33,049 bases of DNA. It comes from an uncultured Clostridia bacterium. GTDB lineage: Bacteria > Bacillota > Clostridia > Oscillospirales > Acutalibacteraceae. Position numbers and translations under genes: made by a program. This document shows, piece by piece, positions 740 to 32,456 of this stretch. How positions within the stretch are numbered: position 1 is the stretch's first letter; every line of letters starts with the position of its first letter. The stretch covers positions 1 through 33,049 of the forward strand of contig CAMGDG010000009.1 of assembly GCA_946041635.1 (NCBI GenBank). Direction: 5' to 3'. Under the pieces are notes generated by a model. It ran no database searches and was not told the DNA's origin. It saw only the letters and a program-made list of their open reading frames with translations.

Positions 740-2085
740 TATTTCTTCTCTATAAACTTTAAAATTTCTTCGTAATCGTTTTTTATTCTTCCGTCGATTA
801 CCCCGTCAAGGCAAATTCGGAGAGCTTCTCCGATTTCTTTTCCCTTATAGCCCATTCGGAGTAAGTCGTTTCCGTTGATTTTCAAATCCTTAACGGAAAA
901 GCACTCTTTTCCCCCTATGATTTCATCAATCATTTCAAGAGTTTTACCGTAAAATTCATCGCCCCTGTAATAATCCGGATTTTGCGCCGAATTATCACAC
1001 CTTTTTATCTCAATCAAATCGTAAATCAGTTCTTCTCCGATTTGTGACATAATCCGCTTAATTCTGCGGCGGTCGGGAGAATTGCTTCCCTGCACCGTTA
1101 TTGGTGAATCGTGAAATTCCACAAGGGTTACAACCTTGTTTTTTGTGTCGTTATCAAATCGAAGCCGAGTCATAATGTTTGCCGTTATTTCTGCGCTCTT
1201 TTTCGGGTGAGAGTAAAAATGCATTTCACCCTTTTCGTCAAAGGAAACGCAGGCAGGCTTTCCTATATCGTGGAAAAGCAAAGCCAAACGGATTGTCTTG
1301 CTCGGTCGGCTCTTTGTCATCGCTTTAAGAGTATGTGTGTAAACATCGTAAATATGATGACGGTTTATCTGTTCAAACCCGATTAAAGGCTTGATCTCAG
1401 GTAAAATCACACCTAATACATCGGAAAACTCCTCTAAAACCTCATAAGCATTTTTTCCGCAGATAAGCTTGACGGTTTCTTCACGGATACGCTCTGCGGA
1501 AATATTTTTAAGCAATTCCTTGCATTTTCTTATGGCGATTTTCGTGTTTTCCTCAATAGTAAAGCCCAGCACGGAGGAAAAACGCAAAGCACGCATTATG
1601 CGGAGTGCGTCCTCACGGAAACGGGTTTCGGCGTCTCCGATACAGCGGATAATGCCGTTATTTATATCCTCAATACCTCCCACAAGGTCGCAAAATCCGT
1701 TTTCAAAGCTATACGCCACACCGTTCACTGTAAAATCACGGCGTATAACATCGTCACGCAGGGAGCGGGAGAACTCAACGCTGTCCGGGTGGCGGTTATC
1801 GGAATACTCCCCCTCGCTTCTGTATGTTGTTATCTCAACAGGCTCGCCCTCTAAAAGGACCGTTACGGTGCCGTGCTTTATCCCTGTTTCGATTACATTA
1901 TAATCCTTAAAAACATCTTCAACCTCATATGGCGTGGCATTTGTGGTAACATCAATGTCCCCTATGGGCAAGCCCATAAGGTAATCACGCACGCTTCCGC
2001 CTATGAGAAACGCCTCAAAGCCGCCCTCTTTCAGCATTTCGAGAGCGGTTTTTGCGGCGCTTTTAAAATTATTCTCCCTTTTCAC
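739..2085 (-). CDS. cca: CCA tRNA nucleotidyltransferase with HD domain
   Basis: Adds or repairs the 3'-CCA end of tRNAs in the cytoplasm, using CTP and ATP without a template. Class II signatures are clear: GGSVRD at residues 29-34, the metal-binding DID at 43-45, the RRDFTVN segment near 115-121, and EDALRIMRALRF near 158-169. A C-terminal HD domain follows (HDIGKP at 272-277), as in CCA-adding enzymes with extra phosphohydrolase activity. The open frame extends 29 codons further upstream, but that part overlaps the preceding gene and looks non-coding. I choose the GTG at 2083-2085, which follows AGAGG by nine bases and gives 448 residues, with GGSVRD at the family's usual distance from the start. 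It overlaps the TSCPD gene by 17 bases and is last in a five-gene operon, suggesting translational coupling. Confidence 0.93.
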   Translation of the reverse strand: MKRENNFKSAAKTALEMLKEGGFEAFLIGGSVRDYLMGLPIGDIDVTTNATPYEVEDVFKDYNVIETGIKHGTVTVLLEGEPVEITTYRSEGEYSDNRHPDSVEFSRSLRDDVIRRDFTVNGVAYSFENGFCDLVGGIEDINNGIIRCIGDAETRFREDALRIMRALRFSSVLGFTIEENTKIAIRKCKELLKNISAERIREETVKLICGKNAYEVLEEFSDVLGVILPEIKPLIGFEQINRHHIYDVYTHTLKAMTKSRPSKTIRLALLFHDIGKPACVSFDEKGEMHFYSHPKKSAEITANIMTRLRFDNDTKNKVVTLVEFHDSPITVQGSNSPDRRRIKRIMSQIGEELIYDLIEIKRCDNSAQNPDYYRGDEFYGKTLEMIDEIIGGKECFSVKDLKINGNDLLRMGYKGKEIGEALRICLDGVIDGRIKNDYEEILKFIEKK

Positions 2086-2329
2086 TTTCCAACGCCTCTT
2101 GAAGAGCCACCGCCAACTGGTCGGGGCACGAGGTTTTCTTAAAGCCGCAGGTAATGCCTTTAAAAGTATCAATAACCTCTGTGGCAGGCTTGCCCTTTAC
2201 GATGGCAGAAATTCCTTTTAAATTACCGTTACAGCCGCCGTAAAAAACAACATCCTTAATAATTCCGTTTTCCAGTTCGAAATCAATCTGCCCCGAACAG
2301 GTGCCTTTTGTTCTGTATGAATATTTCAT
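2069..2329 (-). CDS. TSCPD domain-containing protein (TIGR03905-type)
   Basis: An 86-residue protein with the family-defining TSCPDQLA motif near the C-terminus and a YGGCNGN segment in the middle. The family occurs as small stand-alone proteins in Clostridia and as a C-terminal piece of some vitamin B12-dependent ribonucleotide reductases. The conserved cysteines suggest metal or redox chemistry, but the role of the free-standing form is not established. The start follows AAAGGA by about eight bases. It begins four bases after the ksgA stop and its end overlaps cca, so it is an internal operon gene. Confidence 0.85.
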   Translation of the reverse strand: MKYSYRTKGTCSGQIDFELENGIIKDVVFYGGCNGNLKGISAIVKGKPATEVIDTFKGITCGFKKTSCPDQLAVALQEALESEKGE

Positions 2330-2333
2330 TTTT

Positions 2334-3215
2334 TTAATCCTTTACTTTAAATATTTCATTGGACAAATTCACAAGCTGCTCCATTGTAAGTGCTTCTGCC
2401 CTTGCATTTTCTGAAACACCTGCATTTTTAACCGCTTGTGCAATTTTGCTTTTTTCAATGCCCATTCCGCTTGAAAGGGCGTTTAGTACCGTTTTTCTCC
2501 TCTGGGAAAAGGCGGCTTTAACCGTTTGAAAGAAAAGCTTTTCGTCAATAACGGGATAATCTCCCTTTTGTGTTAAATCAAGCTCAATAACACAGCTATC
2601 CACCTTGGGGCTGGGAAAAAACGAGCCACGGGACACATCAAAAAGTTTTCTCGCCTTTGCATAATAATTTACAGCAACGGTAACGGCTCCGCTTTCTCTT
2701 GTGCCAACCTTGGCGCAAAGACGGTCGCCCGCCTCTTTCTGCACCATTACGATTATCTTTTTAAAGGGTAGTTTTTCCTCCAAAAGCCGCATAATTACGG
2801 GAGATGTGATGTAATATGGCAGATTTGCGCAAACAAACACCTCCATACCGTCAAAATGCTCCGCTATTACTTTTTTAAGGTCGATTTTTAAAATATCGCC
2901 GTTTATAAGAGTAAGATTTTCATAGCCCGACAGAGTATCGTTAAGCACGGGGAAAAGACGGGTATCAAGCTCAACGCACACTACTTTATCGCACCGTTCC
3001 AAGAGCTCCTTGGTAAGCACTCCAACGCCTGCGCCTATTTCAAGTACGCCTGTTTTGTTATCGGTGCTTTCCCTGACAGCCTCCGCCATTTTGGGGCAAA
3101 CCGTGGGATTTACAAGGAAATTCTGCCCAAGGCCTTTTGAAAATGTAACGCCGTGCTCCCCCATTACTCTTTTTATAACCGAAAGGTCGGTAAGAGTGTA
3201 GTTTTTCTTATCCAA
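2334..3215 (-). CDS. rsmA: 16S rRNA (A1518/A1519-N6) dimethyltransferase
   Basis: KsgA/RsmA dimethylates two adjacent adenines in the 3' hairpin of 16S rRNA with S-adenosylmethionine, a late step of 30S assembly. The family signatures are present: LGQNFL at residues 29-34, the SAM-binding LEIGAGVG at 58-65, the acidic residue of VELD near 81-84, and the adenine-specific NLPY at 131-134. The C-terminal helical domain contains the usual FSQRRKT stretch. The start is a TTG at 3213-3215 preceded by AAGGA; this puts LGQNFL about 28 residues in, typical of the family. It overlaps the upstream aminotransferase by eight bases and the next gene starts four bases after it. Length 293 aa is normal. Confidence 0.95.
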   Translation of the reverse strand: MDKKNYTLTDLSVIKRVMGEHGVTFSKGLGQNFLVNPTVCPKMAEAVRESTDNKTGVLEIGAGVGVLTKELLERCDKVVCVELDTRLFPVLNDTLSGYENLTLINGDILKIDLKKVIAEHFDGMEVFVCANLPYYITSPVIMRLLEEKLPFKKIIVMVQKEAGDRLCAKVGTRESGAVTVAVNYYAKARKLFDVSRGSFFPSPKVDSCVIELDLTQKGDYPVIDEKLFFQTVKAAFSQRRKTVLNALSSGMGIEKSKIAQAVKNAGVSENARAEALTMEQLVNLSNEIFKVKD

Positions 3216-4395
3216 TATATTTTTCCTTAACTTTTCCTAAAATTTTCATACCCTCAACGATTTTTTCATTGGAGGGCGTGGAGAAATTCATTCTGAAACA
3301 GTTTGTTTCCTCATCGTTTATCATAAACGCCGTACCGGGAACAACCGCAACCTTGTTTGCAATACATTCCTTTACAAATTCAATCATATCAACATTTTCA
3401 GGCAATTTGCACCATACGAACAGGCCGCCCTCGGGACGGACATATTCTACAAAATCGCCCAATTCCGAATCAATAAGGTCGCACATAAGGTTCAGCTTTT
3501 CACGGTAAATTCCGCGGATTTTCTCAATGTGAGCGTTAATATCATACTCCGCCATCCATTTATCCACAAGCATTTGTGAAAACACGGGCGTATGAACATC
3601 CGCAGCCTGCTTGCCCACCGTCATTTTTGCAACAATGGGTGCGGGAGCGCAAATATAGCCCACACGGATGCCCGGTGCCAGAAGCTTTGAGAAAGATCCT
3701 GCGTAAATAACAATTCCGTCCTCATCAAAGCTCTTGATTGAGGGAACCTCTTCACCTGCAACTCTCAAATCGCCGTAAGGGTTGTCCTCCACAATAAGAA
3801 GGCCATATTTTTTTGCAATTTCATAAACAGCCTTTCTCTTTTTAAGACTCATAGTGACTCCCGAGGGGTTCTGGAAATTGGGAATTGTATAGATAAAACG
3901 GGGATTTTCAGCGGTTTTAATAGCGTTTTCAAGCTGTTCTATATTCATTCCGTCCGCCTCAACATCAACGCCGGCAAGCTTACAGCCGTAAGAACGGAAG
4001 CAGTTTAATGAGCCGATAAAGGAGGGGCGTTCGCATATAACCGTGTCGCCGAAATCGCACAGCGCCTTTGTTGCAAGGTCCATAACCTGCTGTGCGCCCG
4101 AAGTTATAATAAGGCTGTCGAACTCTCTGCCGATATTGAATTTTTCCTTTAAATAGCCCGTCATACGGTTACGCAGAGGCGTGTAGCCCTCGGTAACGCC
4201 GTACTGCAAAGCTGTAACGGGTTCTTTTTCAAATATTTCCGCTGAAATCTTCTTAACTTCCTCAATGGGGAAAGCCGCCGCATCCGGGTTGCCCGCCGCA
4301 AAGGGAATTATTGCAGGGTCCTGCGTGGCTTTAAGTATTTCACGGATTGCAGAGGGCTGAAGCCCCGAAATTCTTTTTGAAAAATTGTACTCCAT
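3208..4395 (-). CDS. PLP-dependent class I/II aminotransferase (2-aminoadipate/LysN-like)
   Basis: A 395-residue fold-type I aminotransferase. The PLP-binding lysine is K237 in SFSKLLAPGIRVGY. NPSG (about 177-180) and EDNPYGDL (203-210) supply the conserved asparagine, aspartate and tyrosine contacts. The sequence resembles the free-standing catalytic domain of MocR/LysN-type enzymes (no N-terminal GntR DNA-binding domain here), often annotated as 2-aminoadipate or aromatic aminotransferases. Substrate cannot be decided from sequence. The ATG follows AAGGTGA by a good distance. It lies 11 bases after the patatin gene and overlaps ksgA by eight bases, so it shares their transcript although no common pathway is obvious. 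Confidence 0.9.
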   Translation of the reverse strand: MEYNFSKRISGLQPSAIREILKATQDPAIIPFAAGNPDAAAFPIEEVKKISAEIFEKEPVTALQYGVTEGYTPLRNRMTGYLKEKFNIGREFDSLIITSGAQQVMDLATKALCDFGDTVICERPSFIGSLNCFRSYGCKLAGVDVEADGMNIEQLENAIKTAENPRFIYTIPNFQNPSGVTMSLKKRKAVYEIAKKYGLLIVEDNPYGDLRVAGEEVPSIKSFDEDGIVIYAGSFSKLLAPGIRVGYICAPAPIVAKMTVGKQAADVHTPVFSQMLVDKWMAEYDINAHIEKIRGIYREKLNLMCDLIDSELGDFVEYVRPEGGLFVWCKLPENVDMIEFVKECIANKVAVVPGTAFMINDEETNCFRMNFSTPSNEKIVEGMKILGKVKEKYIG

Positions 4396-4406
4396 TTTAT
4401 ATCACC

Positions 4407-5276
4407 TTAATCGTTTATAGTATCCTGTTTTCTGACAAAGTCCTTTATATCCTGCAATCTTTGCAAGCAGTCAAGCCGACCTCTGTCATAGCAGGCGTCA
4501 AGCTTTGTCCGTGAAAGAGCAACCTCCCACACATCAAGCGGTCTTTCGCTTTGCACAACAATTGCCCTGCCCTCGTTTTCAAGCTTATCAATGAGTTTCA
4601 GAGTTTCGTTGTACTTTATGTGACGCTGTTCCAAAGACTCTGCAACCTTAGGATAATCGGACAGTATTTTTTTATAAACGGGAGGCAGTGCCTCGGGCCG
4701 TTTTTGAAAGCCTTTTTCACGGGTAAGCACTATAACAAGCCTGTCGCACCCGTCCTCCAACGCTTTTTTTACCGGTATGGAATCGGCAACGCCGCCGTCA
4801 AAATACGGTATTCCGTTAATCATTACGGGCTGACAGAATATGGGCACCGCACAGCTTGCCTTAAAGGGGTCAAGGGTGTTATTCTCCACAAGAAAATCCT
4901 TTGTAAAGTATTCGTCCTGCCCTGTCAGCGCATTTGTAACGCCGATTACAAGCTCCGTTTCATCACGGTAAAACTCATCAAAATCGAAAGGCTCCAAATC
5001 ATACGCCATACCGTCAACTATAAAATCAAGTCCGAAAAACGAGTGGTGCTTTAAAAGAGGGTCAACCCCCATAAAGCGTTTATCGTGAATATAATTGGTA
5101 TTGCACCTATAAGCCCTGCCGTTTTGCTTTGAAATATATGAAGCGGAATTGCCCGCCCCTGCGGAAACGCCTATAAGATAATCAAAAAATATGCTGTTTT
5201 CCAAAAGAACATCAAGCACACCTGCGTTATAGACGGCACGCATTGCGCCGCCCTCTACAACTATTCCCGTTTTCAC
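4407..5276 (-). CDS. Patatin-like phospholipase family protein
   Basis: A 289-residue cytoplasmic serine hydrolase of the patatin/RssA-like group. The oxyanion-hole GGAMR motif is at residues 9-13, the nucleophile S38 lies in GVSAG (36-40), and the dyad aspartate is D160 in DGG (160-162). There is no signal peptide or membrane segment. The length and motifs match bacterial YjjU-type patatins, which act on acyl-ester lipids; the substrate here is unknown. The start is GTG at 5274-5276 with GGGGTGA six bases upstream. It is the first gene of the five-gene minus-strand operon ending with cca. I found no convincing -35/-10 pair upstream of it. Confidence 0.9.
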   Translation of the reverse strand: MKTGIVVEGGAMRAVYNAGVLDVLLENSIFFDYLIGVSAGAGNSASYISKQNGRAYRCNTNYIHDKRFMGVDPLLKHHSFFGLDFIVDGMAYDLEPFDFDEFYRDETELVIGVTNALTGQDEYFTKDFLVENNTLDPFKASCAVPIFCQPVMINGIPYFDGGVADSIPVKKALEDGCDRLVIVLTREKGFQKRPEALPPVYKKILSDYPKVAESLEQRHIKYNETLKLIDKLENEGRAIVVQSERPLDVWEVALSRTKLDACYDRGRLDCLQRLQDIKDFVRKQDTIND

Positions 5277-5418
5277 TTACGGTCACCCCAAAAAATCTGT
5301 ATAATAAAGTATATTTGCAATAATTTGTTGTATTACGCATAACTGCCGATATTTTACCACATACGCCGCTGTTTTTCAAGGTGCTTAATAATACCTTAAA
5401 TAAATAAAAACAAAACAG
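5277..5418. other. AT-rich intergenic region between divergent operons
   Basis: About 140 AT-rich bases separate the minus-strand patatin operon from proBA. The minus-strand promoter must lie here (AT-rich stretch near 5295-5330) but no pair with good spacing stands out. No hairpin or T-box-like structure was recognised in front of proBA. Confidence 0.4.
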
Positions 5419-5447
5419 TTGTTAAACCGTGAAAAGTATGGTAAAAT
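5419..5447 (+). promoter_or_regulatory. Sigma-A-type promoter of proBA
   Basis: TTGTTA (5419-5424), a 17-base spacer, then TAAAAT (5442-5447). The expected transcription start near 5454 lies after an upstream in-frame ATG at 5451, which supports the downstream ATG at 5478 as the proB start. Confidence 0.75.
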
Positions 5448-5477
5448 AAAATGATATTTTATGTCAGGAGCAGAAAA

Positions 5478-6266
5478 ATGGCTGTTTTGAAGGATGTTAA
5501 GCGTATTGTTGTTAAGGTTGGCACCTCAACTCTTACATACAGTACGGGCAAAACGAATATAAGAAGAATGCACAAGCTTGTGAGCGTGCTTTCCGATATT
5601 GTAAATTCAGGAATTGAGGTAGCCCTTGTAACAAGCGGAGCAATCGGCGTGGGTGCAGGCAAATTGGGACTTCCCGAAAAGCCCCGTGATACGGCGGGAA
5701 AGCAGGCGGCGGCAACTATCGGTCAATGCGAGCTTATGTTTATGTACGATAAGCTTTTCGGCGAATACGGTCACACCGTAGGTCAGCTTCTCATAACAAA
5801 AAGCGATGTTGAGAACGACGAAAGGCGGCAAAATCTTATAAACACCTTTAACAGGCTGTTCGATTTCGGAGCAATTCCCGTTATAAATGAAAACGACAGC
5901 GTTGCGGTTGAAGAAATTGTTTACGGCGACAACGACTCGCTTTCGGCAATCGTTGCAAAGCTTATAGGAGCCGACGCTCTTATTATTCTCACGGATATTG
6001 ACGGCCTTTACGATGCAAATCCCACAGAAAACGAAGACGCAAAGCTTATTCCCCTTGTAACGGAAATAAACGACGAGCTTTTCGCCATTGCAGGCGGTCA
6101 CGGCTCACGCTTCGGCACGGGCGGAATGGTAACAAAGCTCCATGCGGCGCAAATCGCCATGGAGGCAGGAATTGATACAATTGTTATGAACGGGGAAAAC
6201 CCCACGGAAATTTATAAAGCTCTTGACGGCAAGCAGACAGGTACATTTTTTAAGGGCAGGAATTAG
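5478..6266 (+). CDS. proB: Glutamate 5-kinase, short form without PUA domain
   Basis: Phosphorylates glutamate to gamma-glutamyl phosphate, the first step of proline synthesis. The amino-acid-kinase fold is evident: VVKVGTSTL near residues 11-19, TSGAIGVGAGKLG, the IPVINENDSV substrate loop, and GTGGMVTKLHAA near the nucleotide site. The ATG at 5478 follows AGGAG by eight bases. The upstream ATG at 5451 has no ribosome site and would sit at the predicted transcript 5' end. The 262-residue protein stops just after the kinase domain and so lacks the C-terminal PUA domain of the roughly 367-residue E. coli enzyme; short forms are known in Firmicutes. proA starts two bases after the stop, so the pair is co-translated. 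Confidence 0.95.
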   Translation: MAVLKDVKRIVVKVGTSTLTYSTGKTNIRRMHKLVSVLSDIVNSGIEVALVTSGAIGVGAGKLGLPEKPRDTAGKQAAATIGQCELMFMYDKLFGEYGHTVGQLLITKSDVENDERRQNLINTFNRLFDFGAIPVINENDSVAVEEIVYGDNDSLSAIVAKLIGADALIILTDIDGLYDANPTENEDAKLIPLVTEINDELFAIAGGHGSRFGTGGMVTKLHAAQIAMEAGIDTIVMNGENPTEIYKALDGKQTGTFFKGRN

Positions 6267-6268
6267 AT

Positions 6269-7507
6269 ATGCTTAACGAAATCGGTAAAAGGGCAAAAGA
6301 CGCCGCGGCAAAATTAGCCGTTACCTCAACGGAAGATAAAAACAGAATACTTCAAGCCATGGCGGACGCCTTGCGTGAAAACCGTAAAAAAATTCTTGAA
6401 GCAAACTCAGAAGATATAGAAAACGGCAGAAAAAACGGTATGGCAGACACACTCATTGACCGCCTGATGCTGAATGACGAAAGAATTGAGGGTATGGCGC
6501 AGGGCATTGAGGGCGTTATTTCCCTCCCAGACCCTGTCGGCAGAGTGCTTTGGGAAACAGAACGGCCAAACGGTCTTAAAATTCAGCGTGTCAGCGTACC
6601 CTTGGGGGTAATCGGCATTATCTACGAGGCTCGTCCCAATGTTACAAGCGATGCGGCGGCTTTGGCGGTTAAAGCAGGCAACGCCGCAATTCTCAGGGGC
6701 GGTAAAGAGGCATTTTGCTCCAACGCCTGCATAACGGATATAATGAGAAGTGCCGTTCAAAACGCAGGATTTAACCCCGATATTATAGACCTTGTCCGTG
6801 ACACTTCAAGAGAGAGTGCAACGGCAATGATGAAAATGAACAAGTATATTGATGTGCTTATTCCTCGGGGCAGCGCTTCACTTATAAATGCGGTAGTGGA
6901 AAATTCAACCGTACCCGTAATTGAAACAGGCGTTGGCAACTGTCACATTTACATAGACCGTGACGCAGATATTGATATGGCGGCAAACATTGTATTCAAT
7001 GCGAAAACACAGCGTATTTCTGTTTGCAACACAGCGGAAAGTCTGCTTATTCACAAGGATATTGCAGAGCTCGCCCTGATAGCGGTCAAAGCCCGTCTTG
7101 ACGAAAAAGGCGTTACACTTTACGGCGACGAAATATGCCGTGAAATATGCCCCGATATTGAAAAAGCAACGGAAGATGATTGGGCAAGAGAGTATCTTGA
7201 CTATAAAATGTCCGTTAAAATCGTTTCTTCTCTTGACGAGGCGATGGAACATATCAGAAAATACTCCTCGGGTCACAGCGAAAGCATAATTACGGAAAAT
7301 ATTGACGCCGCTGAAAAATTCCTTTCGGGCGTTGACTCGGCGGCGGTTTATCACAATGCCAGCACACGGTTTACCGACGGCGGCGAGTTCGGCTTCGGTG
7401 CGGAAATCGGTATTTCTACGCAAAAACTTCACGCAAGAGGTCCCTTGGGGCTTCCACAGCTTAATTCCTTTAAATACAAAATATACGGCAACGGTCAGAT
7501 AAGGTAG
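6269..7507 (+). CDS. proA: Gamma-glutamyl phosphate reductase
   Basis: Reduces gamma-glutamyl phosphate to glutamate-5-semialdehyde with NADPH, the second step of proline synthesis. The 412-residue length is standard. An aldehyde dehydrogenase fold is shown by VSVPLGVIGIIYEARPNVT, the GNAAILRGGKEA segment, PVIETGVGNCHIYID, and the catalytic cysteine in QRISVCNTAE. The C-terminal RFTDGGEFGFGAEIGISTQ block is diagnostic for ProA. The ATG is preceded by AGGA at seven bases. It follows proB directly and is followed ten bases later by a membrane-anchored unknown protein. proC is not in the window. Confidence 0.97.
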   Translation: MLNEIGKRAKDAAAKLAVTSTEDKNRILQAMADALRENRKKILEANSEDIENGRKNGMADTLIDRLMLNDERIEGMAQGIEGVISLPDPVGRVLWETERPNGLKIQRVSVPLGVIGIIYEARPNVTSDAAALAVKAGNAAILRGGKEAFCSNACITDIMRSAVQNAGFNPDIIDLVRDTSRESATAMMKMNKYIDVLIPRGSASLINAVVENSTVPVIETGVGNCHIYIDRDADIDMAANIVFNAKTQRISVCNTAESLLIHKDIAELALIAVKARLDEKGVTLYGDEICREICPDIEKATEDDWAREYLDYKMSVKIVSSLDEAMEHIRKYSSGHSESIITENIDAAEKFLSGVDSAAVYHNASTRFTDGGEFGFGAEIGISTQKLHARGPLGLPQLNSFKYKIYGNGQIR

Positions 7508-7517
7508 GTGCTGCAAT

Positions 7518-8330
7518 ATGTCAGAATCCAAAAAAATTAAACACAGCGGCAGTCACAAGGCGGCTTTCCCCGTAGGAATGCTGATTATTCTTCTTGCCGC
7601 CGTGGGCGTTGTTGCGATTGTAATTTCAGCGGTAAAGGGTATATCAACCGCCGTTGAAAACCGCAAAAACTTTGATGAATACAATCGCCTTTTAACTCCC
7701 GTTGTTCTCATTGACCCCGACACTTTCGACGATATTACAAAGGCTGATATGAACCAGCTTATTGAAATTTCTGTGTGGTCGCTTTTAAAAAGTGATATTT
7801 CCCCCGATAAATATGCAGGTACGGGCAGCGGTCTTTCTATTCCCAAAGGCGATGTTGAAACGGAATTCAAAAAACTTTTCGGTACGGAAATTGCCCCCGT
7901 CCACGCAACCGTTGAGGGTTACGGATACGAATTTACATATGACGAAGCATCGGGAACATACACAATTCCCCTTACGGGAATCGTGCCTATTTACACCCCC
8001 AAGGTTGTTGACAAAAAGACCTCGGAGCACACAGTTGTGCTGACCGTGGCGTGCCTTGCAGGTGACGCATGGGAACAGGGCGATAACGGCGAGATGATTG
8101 AGCCTTCCCCCGACAAGTATCTCAAAATAACTCTGCGTGAAAAGGACGGCAGTCTGTTCATTTCCGCAATTCAGAACACAACAACTCCCGAAACGGCAAC
8201 AACCGTATCGCAAAGCGAAACAACCACCGAAAACAAGGATTTGTTGGCTCAGGCAGAGCAGGTTGCAAGCGACACAACCGCCGCAACCGAGGGTGAAAGC
8301 TCGTCTGAGGAAAGCACCTCCGCCGCATAG
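7518..8330 (+). CDS. Membrane-anchored protein with Ser/Thr-rich tail, unknown function
   Basis: A 270-residue protein I do not recognise. A lysine-rich N-terminus precedes one hydrophobic segment (about residues 18-42). The rest should lie outside the membrane: a folded domain (about 50-215) followed by a low-complexity tail rich in Thr, Ser, Glu and Ala (about 220-270), as in cell-wall spacer regions. No sortase signal is present. The ATG at 7518 is preceded by AGGTG at seven bases. It starts ten bases after proA and probably shares the proBA transcript, but nothing in it suggests proline chemistry; the linkage may be only positional. Confidence 0.75.
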   Translation: MSESKKIKHSGSHKAAFPVGMLIILLAAVGVVAIVISAVKGISTAVENRKNFDEYNRLLTPVVLIDPDTFDDITKADMNQLIEISVWSLLKSDISPDKYAGTGSGLSIPKGDVETEFKKLFGTEIAPVHATVEGYGYEFTYDEASGTYTIPLTGIVPIYTPKVVDKKTSEHTVVLTVACLAGDAWEQGDNGEMIEPSPDKYLKITLREKDGSLFISAIQNTTTPETATTVSQSETTTENKDLLAQAEQVASDTTAATEGESSSEESTSAA

Positions 8331-8536
8331 CAAAGTCGGAGCATCTCTTTTGAAACACTCCGACGGAATTTATATCATATCTGCACGGGGCGTACAGGCT
8401 GTTTTAAAAAGCAGGGCTTACCTGTGTCCGCTTTGCAGTTATCTTACTACATAGTATGCTTTTTTGCGGACAAGTGACAGTTTAAAAATTCAGAAAACAC
8501 ATATAATACAAAGAACATATTAAGCGAGGTAAATTT
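8331..8536 (+). other. Intergenic region with hairpins upstream of prfB
   Basis: Contains a 7-bp inverted repeat GTCGGAG/CTCCGAC (8335-8341 and 8358-8364) without a T-run, so it is a weak terminator candidate for the proBA transcript. A second repeat GTCCGC/GCGGAC (8426-8431 and 8466-8471) encloses a near-palindrome TACTACATAGTA. No gene is supported here. Confidence 0.4.
8502..8507 (+). promoter_or_regulatory. Putative prfB promoter -10 element
   Basis: A consensus TATAAT lies 30 bases before the prfB start. No good -35 hexamer is seen at 16-18 bases; GTGACA at 8474-8479 is too far upstream. Tentative. Confidence 0.4.
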
Positions 8537-9658
8537 ATGCTTCAGTATGAAGAATTAAAATTAAGACTTTCAAGCCACGAGGATGAGCTTAAAAACTTGG
8601 CGGAGGCTCTTGGGCTTGAAAAAATGAAGGCTGAAATTGCGTCCTTGGAACAACAGGCGGCAGAAGACGGCTTTTGGGACGATATTCAGAACTCCCAAAA
8701 GGTGCTTCAACGCACAAGCTCATTGAAAAACAAGGTTGCAAGTTATGAAAAGCTGAAATCCGATTACGAAGACGCCCTTGTTATGATTGAACTTGCAGAC
8801 GAAGAAGAGGACGAGAGCCTTTTGGCGGAGTGCACCGAGAGCGTTGAGGAGTTTGAAAGAACGCTTGACAGCCAAACTCTTGCAACGCTTTTAACAGGAG
8901 AATACGACTCTAAAAACGCCATTCTCACTTTCCATGCAGGCGCAGGCGGAACAGAGGCTCAGGACTGGGCGCAGATGCTTTTCAGAATGTATAACCGTTG
9001 GGGTGAACGCCACGGCTACAAGGTTTCAACCCTTGACTATCTTGACGGCGACGAGGCAGGGCTCAAATCCGCAAGTATTCTCATAGAGGGTGAAAACGCC
9101 TACGGCTTTATGAAAAGCGAGGCAGGAATTCACCGTCTTGTGCGGATTTCTCCCTTTGACGCATCGGGCAGGCGCCACACCTCCTTTGCCTCATTGGAGG
9201 TTATGCCCGAAATTGACGAGGACACAAATGTTGAGATAAATCCCGACGATATTGAAATGGCGGTTTACCGTGCCAGCGGCGCAGGCGGACAAAAGGTTAA
9301 CAAAACCTCCTCGGCGGTCCGTCTTACCCATAAGCCCACGGGCATTGTGGTTTCCTGCCAGGTGGAGCGCAGTCAGCACCAGAACCGTGAGGTTGCCATG
9401 ACAATGCTTAAATCAAAGCTTATTGAGATTAAAGAGCGTGAGCACCTTGCAAAGATTGAAGATATTAAAGGCGACCACAAAGAAATTGCATGGGGCAGTC
9501 AGATTCGTTCTTATGTTTTTATGCCTTATACCCTTGCAAAGGATCACAGAACCTCCTTTGAAAACGGTAATATCAACGCCGTTATGGACGGCGATATTGA
9601 CGGCTTTATAAACGCCTACCTTAAAATGCAATCACAAAAACAGTTGGAAAACAGTTGA
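8537..9658 (+). CDS. prfB: Peptide chain release factor 2, no programmed frameshift
   Basis: RF2 recognises UGA and UAA stop codons and triggers peptide release on the ribosome. The tripeptide anticodon SPF is at residues 205-207 ([13 protein letters not shown]) and the catalytic GGQ at 250-252 ([16 protein letters not shown]). Length 373 aa is close to the usual 365. Most bacterial prfB genes carry an in-frame UGA near codon 25 read by +1 frameshifting (CTTTGA); here the equivalent region (ALGLEKMK) is continuous with no stop and no CTTTGA slippery site, so the autoregulatory frameshift seems absent. The ATG follows GAGG by about seven bases. It stands alone between the proBA group and the convergent pnp. 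Confidence 0.96.
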
Positions 9659-9664
9659 TTTTGC

Positions 9665-9694
9665 GGGACGATGAAAGGCATCGTCCCCTACAAG
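9665..9694 (-). repeat. Palindromic repeat unit A1 (GACGATG stem)
   Basis: A 9-bp perfect stem gggacgatg/catcgtccc (9665-9673 and 9679-9687, loop aaagg) followed by ctacaag, i.e. the CTTGTAGGG head in minus orientation. It is almost the same sequence as unit B1 (22837-22864) in the opposite orientation. Confidence 0.75.
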
Positions 9695-9718
9695 GAATCT
9701 ATAAAATGTTTAGCGTGC

Positions 9719-9795
9719 TTGTAGGGTGCGACGACCTCGGCGCACCGTAGGTTTTTCCTGTGATTTTTCGGGCGATTCGTGATTTACCCCTACAA
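9719..9795 (+). repeat. MITE-like palindromic repeat unit A2 (GTGCG stem)
   Basis: Begins TTGTAGGG and ends CCCTACAA (8-bp perfect terminal inverted repeats, 77 bp in all). The left 29 bases (9719-9747) are identical to unit C1 at 23950-23978 and contain a GGTGCG/CGCACC stem. The right part is a second, degenerate unit in the opposite orientation. Confidence 0.75.
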
Positions 9796-9811
9796 TACCT
9801 AAATATGCAAA

Positions 9812-9847
9812 AACCGTCCGCCTTCCGGCGGACGGTTAATTTTTTTT
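9812..9847 (+). terminator. Intrinsic terminator downstream of prfB
   Basis: A perfect 11-bp GC-rich stem (9812-9822 with 9827-9837, tetraloop ttcc) is followed by aatttttttt on the + strand. On the minus strand a shorter T-run follows, so it may also stop pnp transcription. Confidence 0.85.
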
Positions 9848-9877
9848 AGTACTGCTGTTTTTTGCTACTGACCTTAA

Positions 9878-22836: not shown

Positions 22837-22864
22837 TTGTAGGGGACGATGCCTTCATCGTCCC
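22837..22864 (+). repeat. Palindromic repeat unit B1 (GACGATG stem)
   Basis: TTGTAGGG head merging into a 9-bp perfect stem gggacgatg/catcgtccc (22843-22851 and 22856-22864, loop cctt), then gcaaaa. Same subtype as A1 in the opposite orientation. Confidence 0.75.
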
Positions 22865-22894
22865 GCAAAAATCACACCAAAACCCACGGCATGC

Positions 22895-22938
22895 TTGTAG
22901 GGTAGGGTTTCTGCGCCCGCCCGTTGATTTTACTGTCA
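22895..22938 (+). repeat. Degenerate palindromic repeat unit B2
   Basis: TTGTAGGG head, then an imperfect stem-loop ending cgcccgcccg and the same tail tttactgt found in unit D2. It looks like a decayed left half of the C2/D2-type element. Confidence 0.65.
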
Positions 22939-22946
22939 ACCGGTAA

Positions 22947-22989
22947 CTCCCTCAGTCGGCTTAGCCGACAGCTCCCTCAAAGAGGGAGC
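22947..22989 (+). repeat. Two-hairpin repeat B3 (CTCCCTCAGTC type)
   Basis: A perfect arm GTCGGC-tta-GCCGAC (22955-22960, 22964-22969) is followed directly by GCTCCCTC-aaa-GAGGGAGC (22971-22978, 22982-22989). Its sequence is unrelated to the TTGTAGGG units. I recall very similar ctccctcagtc...gagggagc repeats in other Clostridia genomes; this is memory, not a search. Confidence 0.65.
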
Positions 22990-23011
22990 GGAATGGGTTG
23001 CGATGCTGCCG

Positions 23012-23875
23012 TTATTCCTGTGGGGTGAGTCCGGTTAATTCCGTAAAGGCGGGCAACTCATAACTTGGAAAATAAATTCCCCACGACTCACCGTTGTGCA
23101 AAACTTCGAGTATGTAATAGGGTTTAAAGTGCACACAACCATAGTCGTCAACCCCTAACTTATACTCTTTATATTTTCCTTTTTTCGGGTCTTCCTCTTT
23201 ATTCCAACCCAAAGCGCTTATATGTTTGTTCTCCTTATGAATAGCCTTTAAAGATGACAACGGGAACGCGTATTTATTCTCTAAATCCGCAAGTATCAGT
23301 TTATCGTTTTCAATAAACGCTTTGAATTCAACATTAATATACGGCGTCGAGTTAAACCCTGTTTCTTTTGCTTTCGGCTCGCCGTTTTTTATTTTATATG
23401 TAAAGGCTAATATATCAACGGTTTCAGTGTTGTCGGGCACATCTAATTCGGAATATATGCCTTCGCTGACTGATTCAATTTTTCTTACTACATTTTCGCC
23501 CGTATCTGTATTAAGTGTTTCTTTTTGCTTCTTTACGCTTAAAATTTTAAGAATTGCCCAAGTAACAAGACAAGTGCCGCAAACCCAGAACAACCACGGT
23601 GCGTTCTGATAACACTGTGAAATAGTAATATCCGACCACGCTCTCATAATTCCTGATAAACACAACACACCTGCCACTCCGCACACGCCCTGAATTATGC
23701 GTAACGGTAACGGTATTTTTGATTCTTCAACTAAACCGAATGCGTCTTCCTGTGCATTTTCAAGGGTTTGCTTTTGTATTTGTGACACCGTTTTTACTAT
23801 AAATTCTTCCCCGTTAAACTTTTCATTTTTCTTATTCTCTGTAATATCAATACCAATAAACGGCTTCATTTTCAC
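23012..23875 (-). CDS. Orphan two-TM protein of unknown function
   Basis: A 287-residue protein with no family I can name. A polar N-terminus (1-54) precedes two membrane helices (about 57-77 and 93-113). A large soluble domain follows (about 120-287), rich in beta-type segments (TPYINVEFKAFIENDKLILADL, YYILEVLHNGESWGIYFPSYE). Both long ends should be cytoplasmic. The ATG follows GGATGGG with a short gap. It stands alone, with repeat islands immediately on both sides, and no good promoter pair is visible upstream. Its lysine-rich, AT-rich coding differs somewhat from neighbouring housekeeping genes, which could indicate recent acquisition; this is a reading by eye only. Confidence 0.65.
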   Translation of the reverse strand: MKMKPFIGIDITENKKNEKFNGEEFIVKTVSQIQKQTLENAQEDAFGLVEESKIPLPLRIIQGVCGVAGVLCLSGIMRAWSDITISQCYQNAPWLFWVCGTCLVTWAILKILSVKKQKETLNTDTGENVVRKIESVSEGIYSELDVPDNTETVDILAFTYKIKNGEPKAKETGFNSTPYINVEFKAFIENDKLILADLENKYAFPLSSLKAIHKENKHISALGWNKEEDPKKGKYKEYKLGVDDYGCVHFKPYYILEVLHNGESWGIYFPSYELPAFTELTGLTPQE

Positions 23876-23949
23876 CCATCCTTTATATTAAATTCAGCGA
23901 GGTCAAAGGGGTCTGCCGCAAAAAAATCATATCAAACCCAATGCCATAT

Positions 23950-23978
23950 TTGTAGGGTGCGACGACCTCGGCGCACCG
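23950..23978 (+). repeat. Palindromic repeat unit C1 (GTGCG stem)
   Basis: A 29-base unit identical to the left part of A2 (9719-9747), 14 kb away. TTGTAGGG head and GGTGCG/CGCACC stem. Confidence 0.8.
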
Positions 23979-24010
23979 AAAAAAATGAATAATGTTTCCA
24001 ACCTGTGATG

Positions 24011-24075
24011 TTGTAGGGGCGGGGCTTATGTTCCCGCCCAGAATTTTTATGTGATTTTGCGGCGGGGGCAAGCCC
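24011..24075 (+). repeat. Composite inverted repeat element C2 (GCGGG stems)
   Basis: Starts TTGTAGGGGCGGG and ends CCCGCCCTACC, so its two ends are inverted copies. Each end holds its own hairpin (GGGCGGG/CCCGCCC type and GGCGGGGGC-aa-GCCCCCGCC), separated by about 25 AT-rich bases. It is the same design as D2. Confidence 0.8.
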
Positions 24076-24115
24076 CCGCCCTACCTTGCTTATTTTGATT
24101 TTATGAAATTTCACA

Positions 24116-24142
24116 GGGTGGGCACAAAGACCCACCCCTACA
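24116..24142 (-). repeat. Palindromic repeat unit C3 (GTGGG stem)
   Basis: A 7-bp stem GGGTGGG/CCCACCC (24116-24122, 24131-24137) followed by ctaca, i.e. the TGTAGGGG head in minus orientation. It lies 24 bases beyond the Band-7 gene stop and might double as a 3'-end hairpin. Confidence 0.7.
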
Positions 24143-32345: not shown

Positions 32346-32360
32346 GCGTCCCCTACAAGG
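32346..32360 (-). repeat. Partial repeat unit D1
   Basis: gcgtcccctacaagg equals the head and first stem bases of the GACGATG-type unit in minus orientation; the rest is missing. Confidence 0.5.
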
Positions 32361-32381: not shown

Positions 32382-32456
32382 TTGTAGGGGCGGGTCTCTG
32401 TGCCCGCCCGATAGTTTTACTGTAATTTGGCGGCGGGAGCAAGCTCCCGCCCTACC
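32382..32456 (+). repeat. Composite inverted repeat element D2 (GCGGG stems)
   Basis: TTGTAGGGGCGGG at the left and CCCGCCCTACC at the right, two internal hairpins and an AT-rich middle. It aligns with C2 along its whole length; the right hairpin shows a paired change (GGGAGC/GCTCCC versus GGGGGC/GCCCCC). Confidence 0.8.

Follow-up and report, generated by a model that had tools for sequence, protein, structure and literature searches.

The repeats analysed here most resemble the REPs of the GTAG super-family (Di Nocera 2013, PMC3733652), in which an unpaired GTAG tag immediately adjoins the base of a short hairpin (stem of 6-13 bp, short loop), the stems define complementary subfamilies, and each genome holds many dispersed, mostly extragenic copies, some in intergenic dimers or clusters. 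The families described there come mainly from Proteobacteria, and the main text of that paper names neither Firmicutes nor Clostridia nor Ruminococcus; RepRanger (2025) lists REPs of Bacillota, RAYTs going unmentioned in its main text. The associated enzyme, TnpAREP or RAYT, acts on single-stranded DNA, where it binds GTAG together with the hairpin and cleaves at CT or CA (PMC8266576, PMC2817692). In the REPtron (Nunvar 2010, PMC2817692) an inverted pair of the gene's own REP flanks one RAYT gene, and in REPINs and BIMEs (Bertels and Rainey 2011, PMC3116915) REPs form inverted doublets and mosaic clusters of alternating orientation. For TnpAY1 subclass 2.4 (Bertels group 4 RAYTs), REPs have been described within the tnpAREP genes themselves, as frame-preserving insertions in flexible regions that fall generally between HuH and Y and come besides flanking REPs (Quentin 2018, PMC6006769); this paper was the sole relevant match in the literature searched for REPs of Clostridia or REPs within genes. 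Already known, then, are GTAG REPs and RAYTs, the presence of REPs in RAYT genes, and mosaic clusters of REPs.

The window, i.e. the whole stretch of 33,049 nt that was analysed, contains nine copies of TTGTAGGG where 0.64 are expected. In nine units a perfect or near-perfect hairpin lies immediately 3' of GTAG; each unit comprises an unpaired GTAG foot and a stem of 7-10 bp whose first bases are GG, and folding as single-stranded DNA gives z values of -2.4 to -7.1. The hairpin has gone from three of the nine TTGTAGGG copies (9788, 22895 and 32351; z about 0 to +1). We therefore identify the TTGTAGGG repeats scattered over the window as REP hairpins of the GTAG type, small palindromes of the kind that would be mobile.

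Island A holds A1 (9665..9693, minus strand; TTGTAG foot, stem GGGACGATG, loop CCTTT, z -7.1), A2 (9719..9747, plus strand; stem GGTGCGACGA, interrupted by a single internal mismatch, loop CC) and the decayed A3 (9769..9795, minus strand; z +1.1), which keeps the head, has lost the left arm and has a right arm (..GAATCGCCCG) similar to the GGGCGATTC type. B1 (22837..22865, plus strand; stem GGGACGATG, loop CCTT) is followed by the decayed B2 (22895..22923, plus strand; z +0.2), whose site in the relative G449 is occupied by an intact REP (GGGCGGG, loop GCTTATGCG). Further on come C1 (23950..23978, plus strand; A2 type, stem GGTGCGACGA), C2 (24011..24039, plus strand; stem GGGCGGG, loop GCTTATGTT) and C3 (24116..24141, minus strand; stem GGGTGGG, loop TCTTTGTG), then the decayed head D1 (32351..32358, minus strand; hairpin gone, z +0.3) and D2 (32382..32409, plus strand; stem GGGCGGG, loop TCTCTGTG). 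Two REPs had been overlooked in an earlier note on this DNA: one at 24061..24084 (minus strand; GTAG foot, stem GGCGGGGGC, loop TT), the inverted partner of C2 across a gap of 22 nt, and one at 32432..32455 (minus strand; stem GGCGGGAGC, loop TT), the inverted partner of D2 across 23 nt. The stems quoted in that note were all located in the window: GGGACGATG at 9665-9691 (minus strand) and 22839-22864 (plus strand), GGTGCGACGA at 9721-9746 and 23952-23977 (both plus strand), GGGCGGG at 24013 and 32384 (both plus strand), and GGGTGGG at 24116-24141 (minus strand). Its fixed head narrows to the shared GTAGGG: the full TTGTAGGG is not constant, since the two overlooked units begin with AGGTAGGG and GGGTAGGG, i.e. 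GTAGGG without TT. Its statement that all copies lie outside genes holds for every REP of the window and fails genome-wide, because RAYT genes contain copies. The 29-base identity of A2 and C1, taken there as a sign of recent copying, belongs to a type with about ten copies in 402 kb of this genome; identity alone therefore cannot date the copying.

Inverted doublets with a spacer of 22-23 nt and mosaic clusters of alternating orientation are found here as in REPINs and BIMEs; unlike these, the doublets here often pair two different stem types. In the same-genus genome G098 (L201 14925-15142; L202 11958-12181), five REPs follow one another in strictly alternating orientation with gaps of about 25 nt, nearly every stem type being different, a mosaic, BIME-like arrangement. 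REP tandems of the window's own genome (e.g. window 24061-24141) usually show a gap of 31-34 nt and many share an AT-rich tail like GCAAAATCACANAAAAACCCACGGC; because of this regular spacing and common tail, what is copied may extend beyond the hairpin.

In the whole assembly (1.48 Mb) TTGTAGGG occurs 90 times, against 25 for the reversed control. We then considered 402 kb of this genome, made of the window and of stretches mostly from contigs with hits, so that density is biased upward. There GTAG precedes a GG-hairpin at 70 of 1053 sites (6.65%, against 0.055% for all tetranucleotides) and ranks first among tetranucleotides as GG-hairpin prefix; the second, TAGG, is the same motif shifted by one base. 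The 75 hairpins found 3' of GTAGG in this sample fall mainly into a few stem-and-loop types: GGGACGATG, GGCGGGGGC with loop TT and GGGCGATTC (13 each), GGTGCGACG(A) (10), GGGCGGG (5) and smaller ones. The family is therefore large and far from the handful of copies that would have spoken against the earlier note, and its several subfamilies correspond to these discrete types. The proposal that structure is selected while stems vary also stands: compensated pair types occur at stem pairs 3-9, as measured on the copies inside RAYT genes.

A Pfam search revealed Y1 transposase genes in the assembly, and a protein search identified four copies of a RAYT (TnpAREP, HUH/Y1), the REP-type transposase that the earlier note had suggested looking for. 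They match the NCBIfam model NF047646 (REP_Tyr_transpos, REP-associated tyrosine transposase) with E values of 1e-12 to 1e-15 and a score under the curated cut-off. With both the profile and the AlphaFold model (pLDDT 84.5), the top match among solved structures is 4er8, a RAYT bound to a REP hairpin; the HUH fold with its catalytic Y1 tyrosine is thus nearest to TnpAREP. The four copies are 51-74% identical to the C18 protein and two of the four genes carry a premature stop; the near-identical whole-element copies with terminal hairpins that characterise IS200/IS605 elements were not found. The motifs agree with those of subclass 2.4 (NH[IFV]H, WQ and YIxNNP with a variable beta3:alphaC segment): the RAYTs here have the HUH motif NH[IV]H, WQ and YI..NP, YIxNNP being variable (YIEYNA in the window's genome). 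As in the described members of that subclass, the variable beta3-alphaC segment is an in-frame REP, there is no C-terminal extension, and the REPs are GTAG REPs with a GC-rich stem base, including double-foot REPs (e.g. G000:C10:5062-5091).

In this genome, each of the four RAYT genes has two inverted REPs in its coding region, with the HUH motif between them. We collected 54 RAYT ORFs from the window's genome, from its family and from a small number of other records; both REPs are internal in 36 of them. In these 36 genes the upstream REP begins at a codon boundary in 34, and the downstream REP keeps a single frame in 30. REP1 encodes VG......P and REP2 G....PT; in the model both segments are loops (residues 42-51 and about 98-108), the second with low confidence. 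The gene thus has the inverted pair of its own REP known from the REPtron, within the coding sequence instead of flanking the gene. It also differs from the subclass 2.4 cases in having two inverted one-stem REPs, one before and one after HuH, mostly without flankers of the same type; the main text of PMC6006769 describes no such pair around HuH.

The two REPs of a gene match each other. Over 14 arm positions, their stems have on average 0.72 differences, whereas REPs of different genes have 5.76 (0 of 10,000 permutations). In 26 of 29 genes REP1 is closer to the gene's own REP2 than to the REP1 of the nearest relative (mean protein identity 57%). Differences between REP1 and REP2 occur only in sets of two or four, which is what compensation of each change would produce. 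After synonymous recoding that preserves the protein, the stem pairs fall from 8.3 and 8.2 observed to 4.3 and 4.0; pairing exceeds the synonymous-codon expectation significantly in every one of the 29 genes, and all 29 retain GTAG where 8.4 are expected to. These genes were picked for having a hairpin; the test therefore establishes that pairing exceeds the need of the protein and does not measure how often the hairpin is lost. The REP-coded segments are a clear case of codons that are under selection both for a DNA structure and for the protein sequence.

Where both REPs are internal, the usual outside partners are mostly missing: a REP of the same type lies within 300 nt outside the gene in only 4 of these 36 genes (absent in 32), against 6 of 10 genes with only the downstream REP internal. 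The RAYTs of other families of the phylum mostly have flanking REPs only (e.g. L139, L144, L145, L148, L152, L156), with intermediates in L140, L143 and L147 and both REPs internal in L142; some RAYTs of the clade itself have one or no internal REP. On a poorly resolved tree, which leaves the ancestral state undated, the internal-pair state is clustered (16 changes, against 25 in shuffles). The internal pair was also found in a Monoglobus pectinilyticus plasmid and in the fecal clone MT839559.1. A Chloroflexota relative has flanking REPs, and in the named Spirosoma record that was checked REPs were found neither flanking nor internal.

We then asked how stem type relates to RAYT type. With the REP-coded residues excluded, RAYT sequence still co-varies with stem and loop type (Mantel r=0.33, 0 of 5000 permutations). 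Three stem types were counted over 150 genomes of the family. After manual removal of the copies inside RAYT genes, dispersed copies were present in 6 of 9 cases where a RAYT carries the stem and in 26 of 441 others (Fisher p=6e-6). In the window's own genome three of the four RAYT stem types recur among the dispersed REPs, two exactly and one by its core only: the stem of A1 is identical to that of RAYT gene C18:12536-13039, A2 shares the core of the C45 RAYT gene and not its outer pairs, and the stem of the C51 RAYT, one base pair away from that of C18, was seen, within the 402 kb, only in its own gene. D2 has the type of the internal pair of a RAYT from a same-genus genome (L050). Dispersed and internal copies of the window's genome often differ in loop or outer pairs (GGTGCGACGA as opposed to GGGGCGACGA and GGGCTGACGA). 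Most dispersed copies of the three tested types sit in genomes in which no RAYT with matching stem was found; G112 and G087, with 46 and 25 copies of the GGGACGATG REP respectively, yielded no detectable RAYT. These could be orphaned REPs, and the enzyme could have been missed, lost, or be absent from the draft assemblies, possibly because repeats break contigs. Such REP-rich genomes rule out a strict one-to-one tracking of REP and RAYT; by these counts the tracking of stem type by RAYT is significant but incomplete.

Comparison with G449 gives indications of movement. At window positions ~23907-24056, about 150 bases carrying C1 and C2, from a conserved gene to a conserved REP, are extra relative to G449, with no obvious target duplication; they may be bases gained in the window or a deletion in G449. 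The block 774-9873, from cca to prfB, is inverted in G449 (C2 of that genome); one breakpoint coincides with REP island A, and no REP is present at the corresponding G449 junction. The REP-bounded stretch 22895-23906, which contains a gene without assigned function (23012-23875), is 93% identical to G449, against 79% in the neighbouring block, and a recent exchange of this stretch is possible. The ends of two orthologous genes, dapL and one ending in ...SGNM, are followed by RAYTs that differ in stem type between the window's genome and G449 and that overlap the upstream stop codon by a few bases. These two cases suggest, as a lead, replacement of RAYTs or repeated insertion at fixed docking sites. 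The RAYT start often lies a few bases from the upstream stop codon (L032 1456-1962; L031 1351; L036; L199 6846, 10664), and in this genome one RAYT sits between dapL and purB, overlapping at both ends, as if docked in the operon.

We consider it very probable that these REPs are non-autonomous partners of HUH/Y1 RAYTs, each of which would recognise its own stem; the internal pair probably replaces the flanking one. By analogy with TnpAREPs in vitro, each RAYT would act on single-stranded DNA, binding its own hairpin together with the unpaired GTAG and cutting alongside; REPs would thus be copied or moved into intergenic sites, and the transposase gene is probably what spreads them. Each RAYT would prefer its own stem, and a RAYT lineage would carry its stem type along, since its gene includes the REP pair. 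With several RAYT lineages per genome, one head with several stems would result, the pattern that the earlier note had described. Its other suggestion, a machinery that reads only the head and spreads any hairpin behind GTAG, the stems being arbitrary, agrees with the one head common to many stem types. It is nevertheless highly improbable: the stems of this genome form only a handful of discrete stem-and-loop types, they co-vary with the RAYT sequence outside the REP-coded residues, and other TnpAREPs have stem and loop requirements in vitro (PMC8266576).

That REPs move by RAYT while the internal copies merely sit in two permissive loops, with no role of their own, is the reading that follows Quentin 2018. 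The loops of the model, the frame-preserving insertions in flexible regions reported in PMC6006769 and the clade RAYTs with one or no internal REP all fit it. We nevertheless judge it rather unlikely, given that frames and positions are fixed over a divergent clade, that hairpins exceed the protein's need in every gene tested, that stems are matched within genes, and that flanking REPs are lost where both are internal. Less likely still is a role at the RNA level, in which transcribed hairpins act as terminators or mRNA stabilisers and the self-pairing inverted pair regulates RAYT expression. For three RAYT genes the mRNA is predicted to fold with REP1 paired to REP2, the units are mostly behind genes, and a function as RNA elements has been suggested for REPs in other organisms (PMC3733652); but any inverted matched pair would give such a duplex, and the conserved unpaired GTAG foot, the dispersal and the link to RAYT type would be left unexplained. 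Fixed frames, excess pairing, matched stems and lost flanking REPs rather point to a maintained function of the internal pair, which probably stands in for the two REPs found, as a rule, on either side of a RAYT gene.

As far as the literature consulted shows, the new elements are the matched inverted pair around HUH prevailing in a clostridial clade, the joint change of its two stems, the disappearance of flanking REPs and the apparent swaps of RAYT type at shared sites. A further reading, which we put forward tentatively and regard as a real possibility, is that the transposase gene is its own REP carrier: the pair coded in its loops would replace the element ends, its hairpins would switch stems jointly, and alleles would be swapped at conserved gene-end docking sites such as that behind dapL. 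These genes hold their cognate hairpin in two in-frame copies, with dozens of different stems among them. For the questions of how REPs spread and how a RAYT recognises its own REP, this one clade therefore offers many natural enzyme-substrate pairs, in which the co-variation of REP stem and protein can be read directly and tested by stem swaps. If the gene is indeed its own carrier, stem identity would be an address inherited within the coding sequence.
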